Source: Nocardioides sp. Soil774 (GTDB taxonomy: Bacteria; Actinomycetota; Actinomycetes; Propionibacteriales; Nocardioidaceae). Taken from it: DNA of 64,000 nucleotides. Under the pieces are notes generated by a model. That model worked only from the letters and a program-made list of their open reading frames with translations. It was not told where the DNA came from and did no database searches. How positions within the stretch are numbered: the stretch's first letter is position 1; each line of letters begins with the position of its first letter. Shown here piece after piece: positions 1 through 11,392 of the stretch. A program made the position numbers and the translations under genes. The DNA is taken from positions 355,185-419,184 of the forward strand of contig NZ_LMSM01000008.1 of the NCBI RefSeq assembly GCF_001428125.1. Reading direction: 5' to 3'.

Positions 1-419
1 CGCCAGCCCTCTGCGGTCAGCTTCCACACGATGGTCGCGACGCAGTCGAAGGTCGCCACGTGCGGGCCGACCGCCAGCGTCTGGCGGAAGTCGAGCGCCG
101 AGAAGCCCATCGTCTCGTGCCGGACGGCCTGGTAGCCCAGGACGGTCGACTCGGTCCACGCTCCCATGGCGTCCAGGGTGGCGAACAGGTCCCGGAACCA
201 GGTCAGCCACTCCGTGCGGGTCCTGATCGGGCGGGCATGGCCGGAGACGTCGATGTCGACGATGCCGAAGTCGTCGTCGCACAGGTCCGAGAGCGTGGCG
301 AGGTCGTGGTCGCGCACGGAGTCCAGCAGCGTGACGGTCTCGGTGTAGAACGGCTGGTCCTCGAAGCCGCGGGGCACAGCGCCGGCGAACGCGGTGGTGG
401 GAGTGGTGGGACGGTCCAT
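1..419 (-). CDS. SnoaL/NTF2-like protein, 3' end cut off by the window
   Basis: Translating the complement from the ATG at 417-419 gives an open frame that runs off the left edge (about 139 residues visible). It begins MDRPTTPTTAFAGAVPRGFE and contains a stretch around residues 25-75 (LLDSVRDHDLATLSDLCDDD, then a TRTEWLTWF segment) typical of SnoaL/NTF2-like cone folds, which include polyketide cyclases, small hydrolases and ring-nuclease-like or scaffold proteins. The gene lies 68 bp downstream of the rhodopsin gene on the same strand and may be co-transcribed with it. Function is unknown; the fold assignment is by general pattern only. Confidence 0.55.
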   Translation of the reverse strand, partial: MDRPTTPTTAFAGAVPRGFEDQPFYTETVTLLDSVRDHDLATLSDLCDDDFGIVDIDVSGHARPIRTRTEWLTWFRDLFATLDAMGAWTESTVLGYQAVRHETMGFSALDFRQTLAVGPHVATFDCVATIVWKLTAEGW

Positions 420-487: not shown

Positions 488-1309
488 TCAGGAGCGGGTG
501 CGCAGCGGAGACGGAGCCGCGGGCTCGGATCCGGCGAGTCCGCTGTCGCCCGACTCGACGTAGCCCTCGTCGCGCGACTTGGCGAGCGCGATCGCAAGGA
601 CCAGGAGGCCGAAGAGCGGCTTGGCGAGCACGTCCGCCACCGAGTAGCCCACCTGACGGGCGATCTCGGCGGTGACCGGGTCGTCGACCAGGACGGGCAG
701 GAAGTAGGCGACAGGGTAGACGGTCCAGGTCACGACGAGGATCCAGCGCAGGCCGCTGAGGAGCCGGATGACGCCCGGAGCCTGCCGGCCCAGGGAGTTG
801 CCGAGCTCGACGAACAGGACGTACACGATGTAGAGGAACGGCAGGGTGCCCACGACCCCCCAGACGATCTTCGCGGTGCTGTCGGCGGCGGCGAGCTCAC
901 CGGGGTAGCCGGAGATGATCATCGCGAGCGCGGCGATCGTCAGTCGTACGAGGAGGCTGCGGGTCTTGCCACGGTCCAGCTTCAGCACCACGACGAGCTC
1001 GGCCAGCAGCAGCGGCACCGTCAACAACCAGTCGACGTAGCGGTAGGCCTCGTTGAACGGGATGCCGTCCTGGACGTAGGCGCCGCCGGTGTAGGTGAAG
1101 GCGTCGACCCAGGAGTTGAAGATGCGCACGTAGTGGTAGAGCGCGATGCCCACCACGACCGTCGACAGCGTGATCGCCAGGCGGTGACGGGGCGCCACCG
1201 AGCCCCGGACGAGCACGAAGAACAGCAGGGACGCGCCCATGGCTGCGATGACGAAGGAGAACGAGTTGTAGACCAGGTCGTACTGACCCGCACTCAGGGT
1301 GAGGCCCAT
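488..1309 (-). CDS. Proton-pumping microbial rhodopsin, xanthorhodopsin/Gloeobacter type
   Basis: Seven-helix retinal protein of 273 residues, expected to pump protons out of the cell in light. Helix C reads RYVDWLLTVPLLLAE at residues 90-104, giving the D93-T97-E104 (DTE) triad of outward proton pumps; L101 is at the proteorhodopsin position where Leu gives green absorption. Helix B has H59 (YHYVRIFNSW, residues 58-67), as in xanthorhodopsin. Helix G has D226 and the retinal Schiff-base lysine K230 (DVLAKPLFG). G151 (IVWG) is at the site where Gloeobacter rhodopsin and xanthorhodopsin have Gly, opening a window for a carotenoid antenna. The start has AAGGAG six bases upstream. No retinal or carotenoid gene is in the window. 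Divergent from a CarH-like regulator. Confidence 0.95.
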   Translation of the reverse strand: MGLTLSAGQYDLVYNSFSFVIAAMGASLLFFVLVRGSVAPRHRLAITLSTVVVGIALYHYVRIFNSWVDAFTYTGGAYVQDGIPFNEAYRYVDWLLTVPLLLAELVVVLKLDRGKTRSLLVRLTIAALAMIISGYPGELAAADSTAKIVWGVVGTLPFLYIVYVLFVELGNSLGRQAPGVIRLLSGLRWILVVTWTVYPVAYFLPVLVDDPVTAEIARQVGYSVADVLAKPLFGLLVLAIALAKSRDEGYVESGDSGLAGSEPAAPSPLRTRS

Positions 1310-1432
1310 GGCTTGCTCCTTGTAGGAGAGGCTCCCGAGTGGCGCTCGTGATTAGGTGCTGCGAAATTAGCATCGCTTAGCCCGAATTAACAATGATCAG
1401 CGCAAATATGTCGTCCGCTCTACGATGGAGGG
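1310..1432. promoter_or_regulatory. Divergent rhodopsin/CarH-like promoter region with 10-bp-period repeats
   Basis: This AT-richer spacer separates the rhodopsin gene from the B12-type regulator. On the complement, TTGTTA (1388-1393) and TAATTT (1364-1369) are spaced 18 bp and form a plausible rhodopsin promoter. On the plus strand, TACGAT (1421-1426) lies six bases before the regulator's ATG, the layout of a leaderless transcript. The motifs TTAGC (1367), TTAGC (1377), TTAAC (1387) and TCAGC (1397) recur exactly every 10 bp across the rhodopsin promoter. CarH proteins bind as tetramers to tandem repeats of about 11 bp, so these are operator candidates; that is inference. Confidence 0.6.
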
Positions 1433-2212
1433 ATGACGGAGCCGCCCCTGATCGAGCTGCGCGACGCGGCAGCCGAGCTCGGCGTGCACTACCAGACCGC
1501 CTACCGGTGGGTCCGCAGTGGACAGCTCCCCGCCACCATGGTCGCTGGGAAGTACGCCGTCAGCCGCGCCGACGTCGAGGAGCTGGCGGAACGCCGGACA
1601 CGCCCCCGGCCGGTCCCCGCCCCCGGCCCGCGACGCCTGGAGGGCCAGGCCGACCGCATGCACGACGCGCTGGTCTCCGGAGACGACGCCGCCGCCCGGA
1701 AGGTCGCACGCCGCCTCGTGGAGGAGGGGACGTCGGTCCAGGAGCTCATCACGCACGTCCTCAGCCCTCCGCTGCGGCGGATCGGTCAGTCCTGGCACGA
1801 CGGCGAGGTCCCGATCTGGGTGGAGCACCGCGCCTCGGCGGTCGTCGAGCGGGTCCTGGGAGAGCTCACTCCCTCGCCGCGCGGGCGCAGGCGCGGCACG
1901 GTGATGGTCGCGGCCGTCACCGGCGACCTGCACGCCTTGCCCACCGCGATGGCCGCCGCCGCACTCCGCGACGACAACTGGCGCGTCGAGCACCTCGGCG
2001 CCAACATGCCCCCCGACGACATCGTCGGGTTCTGCCTCAGCCACGACATCGACGTCGCCGTCCTGTCGGTCACCAACAGCCAGGTCGAGGCCGCCGTACG
2101 TCGTGCCACCGCGTCGCTCCGCGAGTCCGGCATCCCCGTCGTGGTGGGGGGCCCGGGACGCGGCCTCGACGAGCTCCTCACCTCCGTCCGGGCAGCGCAC
2201 GACCGAGCCTGA
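1433..2212 (+). CDS. CarH/LitR-like adenosylcobalamin photoreceptor transcription regulator
   Basis: A 259-residue regulator with an N-terminal helix-turn-helix of excisionase/MerR type (residues 6-52, HYQTAYRWVRSG), a B12-binding helical bundle (about 70-145) and a B12-binding Rossmann domain (about 155-255). Key residues of Thermus CarH are present at a constant offset of 10: W121-H122 (W131-H132), E131-H132 (E141-H142) and H167 in GDLH (lower axial ligand H177). In CarH these cap adenosylcobalamin and make the bis-His adduct after light, which breaks the DNA-binding tetramer. It probably represses in the dark and releases in light. Its position divergent from the rhodopsin gene suggests it controls that gene. 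Leaderless start is likely. Confidence 0.88.
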   Translation: MTEPPLIELRDAAAELGVHYQTAYRWVRSGQLPATMVAGKYAVSRADVEELAERRTRPRPVPAPGPRRLEGQADRMHDALVSGDDAAARKVARRLVEEGTSVQELITHVLSPPLRRIGQSWHDGEVPIWVEHRASAVVERVLGELTPSPRGRRRGTVMVAAVTGDLHALPTAMAAAALRDDNWRVEHLGANMPPDDIVGFCLSHDIDVAVLSVTNSQVEAAVRRATASLRESGIPVVVGGPGRGLDELLTSVRAAHDRA

Positions 2213-9577: not shown

Positions 9578-9604
9578 GCAGGACCGGTCGCCCCGGGTGG
9601 GGCG

Positions 9605-11392
9605 TCAGGACCGCCGTGGGGTCGTGGTCGGGGTCTCCGTCGGCACCGGCGTGGTCGGGGTCTCGGTCGGGGCCGGCGTGGTCGGGGTCTCGGTCGGCGT
9701 CTCGGTGGGCACCGGCTCCTCGTAGGCGGAGACGAAGATCGTGACGGTGCTGCCCTGGTCGGCCGTGCCCCCCACGGGGATCTGGTCGACGACCGTGCCC
9801 TTGGGCTCGGTCGAGGTGGCGTCGGTGCGCACGTCGGGGACGAAGCCGGCCTCGCGGATGGCCCGCTCCGCCGCACCCTGCTTCAGCCCGCGCACGTCCG
9901 GGACCTTCTCGGGGCCGTCGGAGAACACGATCGTGATCGTGGTGCCCTCACCGACCGGCGTGCCGGCCGGCGGCGTGGTGCTGAGGACCTGGAAGCGCGG
10001 CTCGTCGGAGTCCTCCTCCTGGAAGCGCACCTTGAGGTCCTGCGCGAGCATCGCCTCGCGGGCGTCCTTGCGCAGCGTGCCCACGACGTAGGGCACCTCG
10101 ACCTCGGGCTTGCCGACCGACAGCACGAAGTCGACCGAGGTGCCGGGGTCGACGAAGACGTCGCGGTTGGGGTCCTGGGAGATGACCTTGTCGGCCTCGA
10201 CGGTGTCGGAGGTGTCACGGCCGACCTGCCCGACCCGGAGCCCGGCGTCGGCGATCGCGAGGCGCGCCTGCTGCTCGGTGAGTCCGACGACGTTGGGGAC
10301 GGCCTCCCGCTGGGGGGCGTCGTCGAAGAGCATGTTGTTGAGCGCCCAGGCGCCCAGACCGAGCAGGAGGACGGCGAGGAAGCCCGCGAGCACCCACCAC
10401 GCCGTACGGCTGCGGGACGGGCCCTCCTGCTGGGGCGGCGGGGGCGGAGCCATCGTGGTGGTGGCGTGCGCGGGCGGGACGGCGGCGACCTGCTGGGTCT
10501 CCGCGGCGAGCGGCAGCACGGCCGGCGCCTGGATGGGGTGCCCGGAGAGGTAGCGCTCGATGTCGGCCTTCATCGCCGCGGCGCTCTGGTAGCGGTCCTC
10601 GACGCGCTTGGCGAGCGACTTCATCACGATCGCGTCGATCTCGGGGTCGAGCTGGTCGTCGAGGTCCGACGGCGGCGCCGCGGGCTCGCGGACGTGCTGG
10701 TAGGCGACCGCCACCGGGCTGTCGCCGATGAACGGCGGACGGCCGGTGAGCAGCTCGTAGAGCATGCACCCGGTGGAGTAGACGTCGGACCTCGAGTCGA
10801 CGGTCTCCCCGCGCGCCTGCTCGGGGGAGAGGTACTGGGCGGTGCCGACCACGGCCGCGGTCTGGGTCATCGTCGAGGAGGCGTCGGAGATCGCGCGGGC
10901 GATGCCGAAGTCCATCACCTTCACGTCGCCCGACGGCGTGAGCATCACGTTGCCGGGCTTGATGTCGCGGTGGATGATGCCCGCGCGGTGGCTGTAGTCG
11001 AGCGCCGACAGGACGCCCGCGGTGATCTCGAGCGCCCGCTCGGGGAGGATCTTGCGACCCTCGCGCAGGATGTCGCGCAGCGTGCGTCCGTCGACGCACT
11101 CCATGACGATGTAGGGCTGGGCGACCCCCGAGCCGTCGGTGGCCATCTCCTCGCCGGTGTCGTAGGTCGACACGATCGCCGGGTGGTTGAGGGAGGCCGA
11201 CGACTGGGCCTCGCGCCGGAAGCGCGCCTGGAAGGTCGCGTCGCTGGCCAGGTCGGTGCGCAGCCGCTTCACCGCGACGGTGCGCCCCAGGCGACGGTCC
11301 TTGCCCTTGCGGACCTCGGCCATGCCTCCGCGGCCCAGCAGCTCGCCGAGCTCGTAGCGGCCGCCGATCAGCGTCGGCTCCGGCTGGGTCAT
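9605..11392 (-). CDS. pknB: PASTA-domain Ser/Thr protein kinase PknB
   Basis: A 595-residue transmembrane kinase that senses peptidoglycan fragments and controls growth and division. The kinase domain (13-280) has the glycine loop GRGGMAEV, K42, HRDIKPGN (141-148), DFG (161-163) and activation-loop threonines T174, T176 and T178 before GTAQYLSPEQA. One membrane helix follows (331-352). Three PASTA repeats start near 365, 429 and 496; M. tuberculosis PknB has four. A Thr/Pro-rich tail of PTETPT repeats (from about 561) ends the protein. Its ATG overlaps the upstream kinase stop (ATGA), and it is last in the pstP-rodA-pbpA-pknA-pknB operon. Confidence 0.95.
   Translation of the reverse strand: MTQPEPTLIGGRYELGELLGRGGMAEVRKGKDRRLGRTVAVKRLRTDLASDATFQARFRREAQSSASLNHPAIVSTYDTGEEMATDGSGVAQPYIVMECVDGRTLRDILREGRKILPERALEITAGVLSALDYSHRAGIIHRDIKPGNVMLTPSGDVKVMDFGIARAISDASSTMTQTAAVVGTAQYLSPEQARGETVDSRSDVYSTGCMLYELLTGRPPFIGDSPVAVAYQHVREPAAPPSDLDDQLDPEIDAIVMKSLAKRVEDRYQSAAAMKADIERYLSGHPIQAPAVLPLAAETQQVAAVPPAHATTTMAPPPPPQQEGPSRSRTAWWVLAGFLAVLLLGLGAWALNNMLFDDAPQREAVPNVVGLTEQQARLAIADAGLRVGQVGRDTSDTVEADKVISQDPNRDVFVDPGTSVDFVLSVGKPEVEVPYVVGTLRKDAREAMLAQDLKVRFQEEDSDEPRFQVLSTTPPAGTPVGEGTTITIVFSDGPEKVPDVRGLKQGAAERAIREAGFVPDVRTDATSTEPKGTVVDQIPVGGTADQGSTVTIFVSAYEEPVPTETPTETPTTPAPTETPTTPVPTETPTTTPRRS

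Follow-up and report, generated by a model that had tools for sequence, protein, structure and literature searches.

In a 64,000-nucleotide stretch of the Nocardioides sp. Soil774 genome (contig NZ_LMSM01000008.1, positions 355,185 to 419,184; hereafter the window), a xanthorhodopsin-like rhodopsin gene (488-1309, reverse strand) and a gene for a B12-domain transcriptional regulator (1433-2212, forward strand) diverge from a shared 123-bp intergenic region, and we consider it likely, judging from sequence, that the pair constitutes a dedicated B12 light switch on the gene of a light-driven pump. How bacteria time the production of proton-pump rhodopsins is, to our knowledge, little understood. 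A first-pass annotation had placed the same two reading frames here and proposed that the pump would be switched on by B12 photochemistry. That proposal is supported by a recurring gene pair, a shared operator over the predicted promoters, and an intact photoreceptor signature, which together would predict dependence on light and B12. To that proposal we add an operator, the lack of detected carotenoid and retinal genes, and a SnoaL gene located behind the rhodopsin. The host genome is 3.85 Mb and 99.85% complete.

The linkage of the regulator to rhodopsin and the conserved operator between them are well supported. The first-pass annotation had made its proposal depend on a conserved neighborhood in related genomes, and the divergent pair indeed recurs in Ilumatobacteraceae and other Acidimicrobiia. 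Scanning our genome collection with the regulator alignment returned 55 loci, 12 of which encode a rhodopsin; it is adjacent and divergent at 11 (including L065 and L067, where the rhodopsin N terminus was unmatched), and at L057, which we counted as not divergent, it lies ∼1 kb downstream on the same strand. Rhodopsins were found at E <= 1e-25 in 95 of 221 Ilumatobacteraceae genomes. Those 62 to 71% identical to the window's had a divergent regulator at 10 of 14 loci (the four without it are G699:C285, G703:C6, G832, and G741), and it was found at none of the 18 loci fetched from among the low-identity matches (<=52%), several of which had little upstream sequence. Across the class Actinomycetes, 64 of 394 genomes had a rhodopsin and 30 loci were fetched; with the window and one Nocardioidaceae genome set aside, a B12 gene lay within the fetched flanks at 0 of 28, two of which had almost no upstream sequence. 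As for the suggested co-occurrence across Nocardioidaceae, a second genome does carry the pair (G066, an Aeromicrobium), but the arrangement is rare: rhodopsins exceeded the cut-off in 16 of 341 genomes, and only these two of the 16 have the pair.

The intergenic region contains a candidate operator whose unit, TTAGY-N5, is repeated head to tail every 10 bp, with four copies in most pairs and six in L052. Because this unit was derived from the scored sequences themselves, spacing served as the main control. Over 13 pairs, the mean best score was 18.0 of 20 at 10 bp, compared with 12.9 to 14.5 at spacings of 6 to 9 and 11 to 16 bp and 13.1 in dinucleotide shuffles; L065 and L067/L172 were left out of this and the Mantel counts, since the unmatched rhodopsin N terminus gave no start. 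Ten same-clade regulators that are not divergent from a rhodopsin scored 17.8, and 25 distant regulators scored 12.4, near their shuffles (12.2). At p <= 0.01, the array was detected at none of four unpaired rhodopsins of 62 to 70% identity, none of 17 distant Ilumatobacteraceae rhodopsin loci, and none of 27 class Actinomycetes rhodopsin loci without the regulator (one more locus in each of the latter two sets was too short). These absences rest on array scoring; a pattern scan was also empty at the four unpaired loci but misses three real pairs (L169-L171). Within the window's own genome, a three-repeat pattern with <=2 mismatches matched only at 1367-1406 (one exact match and an overlapping shift). 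In G699 and G703, an additional rhodopsin of this clade lacks the regulator (L165:4173-4958 and L166:6178-6963) and has no significant operator array (scores 14 and 15; p = 0.21 and 0.16), so that these two genomes offer a natural comparison of switched and unswitched genes.

The regulator combines an excisionase-type HTH_17 DNA-binding domain with a B12-binding_2 helical cap and a B12-binding domain, all above their Pfam cut-offs. PMC11796333 describes GxxW, EH, GxxH, and GxxxP as the signature separating light-responsive from other B12 domains; the regulator has all four (G118-W121, E131-H132, G164-H167, and G189-P193), and none of the 15 rhodopsin-linked regulators in our 45-row alignment (A2) lacks any part of it. 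L070, L075, L078, L082, L088, and L090 were left out of A2 and the regulator tree as partial, near-duplicate, or with odd starts, and L095-L102 were left out as matches of <=97 residues. The first-pass annotation had listed five CarH photochemical residues at a constant offset of 10 from Thermus CarH, and this is correct: W121, H122, E131, H132, and H167 align with identical residues of the 3whp chain, which are numbered W131, H132, E141, H142, and H177 in PMC11796333 (H132 and H177 also in PMC10442372). H122 thus stands at the site of H132, the upper-ligand histidine of the bis-His light state of CarH, and tetramer dissociation does not occur in the H132A variant, according to PMC10442372. 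The histidine is present in 13 of 15 rhodopsin-linked regulators, 5 of 10 same-clade non-divergent relatives, and 0 of 20 distant relatives (Fisher 7e-8 for rhodopsin-linked versus distant, a guide only, because the rows are related). From these residues we infer that the regulator binds adenosylcobalamin (AdoCbl) and responds to light.

The regulator could instead sense the supply of AdoCbl (or redox or oxygen via the cobalt), so that a shortage of coenzyme B12 would turn rhodopsin production on. Its domains would be suited to this as well, the role of light is a prediction from residues, and some distant homologues do lose signature residues (L072, L083, L084, L087, L091, and L093; in L056 and L081, S replaces the G of GxxxP). 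Such losses are absent from the rhodopsin-linked regulators, all of which retain the light-associated signature (PMC11796333), the photoswitch histidine is enriched among them, and a light-using target suits a light signal. We consider supply sensing unlikely and favor a light sensor.

The term "CarH-type" used in the first-pass annotation holds for the sensor but not for the rest of the protein. Like the CarH/LitR proteins of Thermus, Bacillus megaterium, and Myxococcus, which are MerR-type AdoCbl photoreceptor-repressors, the regulator joins a DNA-binding domain to a B12 cap and B12 domain, has the equivalents of W131, H132, E141, H142, and H177, and is associated with tandem head-to-tail direct repeats over promoter elements. 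Unlike them, it has HTH_17 in place of MerR (the MerR model stayed below cut-off in the Pfam scan, E = 0.049, 13.9 bits versus 28.2), adjoins a rhodopsin as its presumed target in a genome in which no phytoene synthase was found, and scores 62.1 bits against the 400-bit cut-off of the NCBIfam CarH equivalog. Its 10-bp TTAGY repeats also differ from CarH operators, which, according to PMC9304148, are tandem 11-bp repeats (nnnnTnnACAn) overlapping −35 or −10 elements and mediating repression. We therefore rejected membership in CarH/LitR in the strict sense. An AlphaFold2 model of the regulator (mean predicted local distance difference test, pLDDT, 95.9) matched the photocobilin 8j2y best (Z 24.6, root-mean-square deviation (rmsd) 1.7 over 193 residues), then CtMerR 8jbt (Z 20.5, rmsd 2.6 over 194) and the CarH B12 domain 8c73 (Z 18.2, rmsd 2.8 over 182). 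The photocobilins SasPcob and AbDPcob and CtMerR provide the closest solved B12 domains and share the same signature. Unlike photocobilins, the regulator has a DNA-binding domain and lacks a biliverdin-binding domain after the B12 domain; it ends at residue 259 directly after the B12 domain, and no further domain exceeded its cut-off. It also keeps H122 where PMC11796333 gives Gln in SasPcob, Tyr in AbDPcob, and Arg in CtMerR. Searching the openly licensed literature, in so far as its text was available, we found no paper placing a rhodopsin gene under CarH/LitR or another B12 regulator; a Rhodoluna study reports light-responsive actinorhodopsin transcripts, and its text has neither CarH nor cobalamin (PMC8591293). 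We regard the regulator as a CarH-like sensor placed on a different DNA-binding domain and operator and apparently dedicated to a pump gene.

The rhodopsin is predicted by motif to be a light-driven proton pump. Its key residues are D93, T97, and E104 (the DTE motif), H59, R90, D226, K230, and L101, and all are invariant in 15 of 15 aligned members of its clade. We take D93 to be the Asp acceptor, T97 the motif Thr, E104 the Glu donor, K230 the retinal Lys, and R90 the helix C Arg, and L101 is presumably the proteorhodopsin color-tuning site. G151 aligns with xanthorhodopsin G156, and Gly at this position (8 of 15 clade members) would presumably permit a carotenoid antenna. The nearest solved chains in a PDB sequence search were psXR and Gloeobacter rhodopsin Gll0198. 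The window rhodopsin resembles xanthorhodopsin and actinorhodopsin pumps in its DTE motif, retinal Lys, and Gly at the carotenoid-fenestration site, and differs in forming a separate group (support 94/97; 18 rows, 13 with a divergent regulator) and in having a host without detected retinal or carotenoid genes. In the host genome there was no match to phytoene synthase (PF00494; controls matched in 7 of 14 genomes), RPE65 (PF03055; controls matched in 2 of 14), or Blh/BCD (PF15461; controls were silent in that scan, and the same model matched 14 of 33 genomes elsewhere). The lack of any detected phytoene synthase, Blh, or RPE65-family gene makes carotenoids an unlikely target of the regulator, and with a rhodopsin as the adjacent gene we rejected a carotenoid target. 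Testing 13 pair-bearing genomes for BCD and phytoene synthase gave neither in seven (G000, G066, G702, G704, G705, G706, and G707), both in five, and BCD only in G699; G704 and G707 are counted here, and many of the 13 are metagenome-assembled genomes, in which absence is weaker.

These missing genes could mean that the opsin is no working pump in this host, being a retinal-free lipid scramblase or a passenger, and that the switch controls an opsin with another role; opsins do scramble lipids without retinal (PMC12805836). This reading is, in our judgment, also improbable. The pump residues we checked are kept in all 15 aligned clade members, there is little reason to place a scramblase that does not need light under light control, and an actinobacterium without known retinal genes is reported to have a working rhodopsin and endogenous retinal (PMC7734400), so that a further retinal route is possible in the window's host. 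We favor a working pump that probably runs on scavenged retinal.

The position of the array suggests how the switch would work. Read on the rhodopsin strand, repeat 1 is TAANNT, a predicted −10 hexamer, in 12 of 13 pairs, whereas repeats 2, 3, and 4 show the diagnostic A in 0, 1, and 2 of 13 pairs, respectively; for this analysis the first repeats of L052, L060, L062, and L169 were placed by eye, whereas operator scoring was automatic. On the other strand, TANNNT lies 12 to 15 nt before the regulator start in 13 of 13 pairs, and because this −10 is so close to the start codon, the regulator message is probably leaderless. The operator ends 14 bp from the regulator −10; assuming a spacer of 17 nt, the −35 would fall at 1398-1403, inside repeat 4. 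Given these conserved hexamer positions, the array lies on the rhodopsin −10 and, with the usual spacer, would lie on the regulator −35. In the dark, the regulator would bind AdoCbl and oligomerize, and the oligomer would occupy the four head-to-tail repeats, covering the rhodopsin core promoter and adjoining the regulator's, so that both genes are off. In the light, the cobalt–carbon bond would be broken, H122 would take the cobalt, and the oligomer would fall apart; RNA polymerase would then gain access, and the pump and its SnoaL partner would be made. Direct repeats near a promoter can also serve activation, and the direction of control is something we infer, but a regulator acting as activator or antirepressor is improbable to a marked degree: binding at repeat 1, coinciding with the predicted rhodopsin −10, should block polymerase, and CarH operators placed over −35 or −10 elements repress (PMC9304148). 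We retain a promoter-occluding repressor as the working model. Under this model, light itself would determine whether the cell builds its light-harvester, and the cofactors B12 and retinal become linked. With a single detectable genomic operator, the predicted B12 photoreceptor also makes a directly testable switch, it suggests that CarH-like sensing extends past carotenoids, and the HTH_17 sensor with its 40-bp operator is a possible small green-light optogenetic part.

Rhodopsin and regulator distances correlate over the 13 pairs (Mantel r = 0.74, p = 1e-4), a correlation to which shared species history could contribute. The window and Aeromicrobium copies (rhodopsins 86% and regulators 73% identical) are sisters in both trees, within groups mainly of Ilumatobacteraceae and other Acidimicrobiia; the deeper order of both trees is unsettled, and several rows are labeled just Actinomycetes or Actinomycetota. 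This placement is consistent with the two genes having been transferred together. The Aeromicrobium copy adjoins a transposase (PF00665 and HTH_Tnp_1; L035:15503-16672), which we take to be IS3-like and which is a possible vehicle. We found the pair on neither plasmids nor viruses: a tblastn search of plasmids returned only 14 weak matches to the B12 domain, none covering 80% of the query, and a viral scan gave no relative. That the genes are neighbors by chance, or were carried along on a mobile segment as the transposase and the sister placement might suggest, was rejected as highly improbable given the conserved divergent layout, shared operator, and correlated divergence over 13 pairs.

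Several observations weigh against a dedicated B12 light switch on a pump. The arrays of L060, L062, and L170 are weak, and that of L062 is not significant alone. In the own-genome scan, a reversed-pattern control also gave two matches, and mismatched or weaker sites cannot be judged by it. By sequence as well as by structure, the sensor is matched best by photocobilins and not by CarH. In the tree, the regulators linked to rhodopsins are not cleanly grouped (three label changes), and retinal supply is unexplained by any BCD/Blh, RPE65-family, or phytoene synthase match. Finally, relatives with the same 10-bp operator adjoin WhiB, amine-oxidase, and glycosyltransferase genes, and the sensor family is therefore not rhodopsin-specific. 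The genes that diverge from these relatives (L056, L057, L058, L059, L061, L063, and L066) encode WhiB, flavin amine oxidase, or glycosyltransferase/HEAT proteins, some of them assigned by similarity without a domain scan, and the relatives perhaps represent a wider light-regulon family.

Table 1 Coordinates of the rhodopsin–regulator locus and of other B12-sensor genes (positions refer to the window unless a locus is named).
Feature	Position	Strand	Basis and remarks
SnoaL_3 (NTF2-like) gene	1..419	−	PF13474 2.4e-8; leaves window edge; 161 aa in genome
Rhodopsin, xanthorhodopsin-like, DTE proton pump by motif	488..1309	−	273 aa; PF01036 1.7e-41; nearest PDB chains 9wfa (psXR) and 6nwd
Likely rhodopsin ribosome-binding site AAGGAG	1316..1321	−	Direct reading of sequence
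Predicted rhodopsin −10 hexamer TAATTT	1364..1369	−	Overlaps operator repeat 1
Candidate operator, four 10-bp direct repeats TTAGCatcgc TTAGCccgaa TTAACaatga TCAGCgcaaa	1367..1406	+	Score 20 of 20
Predicted regulator −10 hexamer TACGAT	1421..1426	+	12 nt 5′ of start codon
B12-domain transcriptional regulator	1433..2212	+	259 aa; Pfam, NCBIfam, AlphaFold2 model, structural matches
HTH_17 (excisionase-type) DNA-binding domain, residues 10-55	1460..1597	+	PF12728 2e-11
B12-binding_2 helical cap, residues 73-145	1649..1867	+	PF02607 1.5e-13; carries GxxW (118-121), H122, E131-H132
B12-binding domain, residues 156-242	1898..2158	+	PF02310 1.8e-14; carries GxxH (164-167), GxxxP (189-193)
B12-sensor genes upstream of other Nocardioidaceae rhodopsins	L038:7541-8647; L040:10512-11513; L041:2-664		Two are MerR-type; the contig ends before the DNA-binding domain of the third

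Three further Nocardioidaceae genomes (G118, G205, and G274) have rhodopsins 45 to 47% identical to the window's, directly downstream of and co-oriented with a B12-domain gene. The G118 and G205 rhodopsins fall outside the window rhodopsin's group in the tree, in which G274 was not included. The sequence AACTTGTGCAA is common to all three, between the B12 gene and the rhodopsin and as the only copy in each fetched stretch, and it is absent from the related G030 rhodopsin locus, which has no adjoining B12 gene. This pairing is apparently independent of the window's. Altogether, a B12 sensor is adjacent to 5 of 16 Nocardioidaceae rhodopsins, with at least two families of DNA-binding domain. Elsewhere in the window's own genome, we noted two tandem MerR-B12 proteins (L033:8428-9399 and 9604-10584) and one B12-only protein (L034:8732-9388); their scanned neighbors are a penicillin-binding protein, spermine-synthase-like and PEP-mutase-like genes, and ABC transporter parts, with no carotenoid genes.

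Downstream of and co-oriented with the window rhodopsin lies the SnoaL_3 gene, whose product is a candidate retinal-handling protein. Homologues follow the rhodopsin in L049 (65% identical) and L054 (64%), with a partial copy in L057 and a remnant in L048. Of 16 pair-bearing genomes, 7 have homologues or fragments (the window's own genome, four others at 59 to 65%, G704, where the gene is cut by a contig end, and G066, with its remnant), whereas none turned up in the 17 other genomes tested. They occur in six of seven pair genomes without BCD (one a remnant) versus one of six with BCD (one-sided Fisher 0.025, or 0.078 without the remnant), a link that is suggestive only. The protein matched no solved structure by sequence (best E 0.096), and its model was weak (pLDDT 75, three alignment rows), matching NTF2-like folds in general, including the CaMKII hub (Z 14.3, rmsd 2.7 over 135), ketosteroid isomerases, and SnoaL, and is therefore uninformative on ligand; the orange carotenoid protein was not among the 50 matches listed, which is not evidence either way. 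It is possible, and we suggest it tentatively, that the locus is a portable photoheterotrophy cassette for retinal auxotrophs, in which a B12 switch (HTH_17 and 10-bp operator) and pump would be accompanied by a SnoaL protein capturing or delivering scavenged retinal or making it from scavenged carotenoid, with B12 photoreceptors of different DNA-binding families recruited to rhodopsins at least twice. The SnoaL gene may offer a way into the chromophore supply of rhodopsin hosts without known retinal genes. An intact copy in G706 overlaps the end of a different, NDQ-motif rhodopsin, which we take by its motif to be of the sodium-pump type and which has both sodium and chloride pumps among its solved relatives, and a distant copy in G382 (found by family profile, without a Pfam match) follows another actinobacterial rhodopsin. 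SnoaL genes accordingly stand behind three kinds of rhodopsin (window 1-419, reverse strand; L049:4493-5002; L054:4483-5025; L184:6081-6563; and L119:886-1302).

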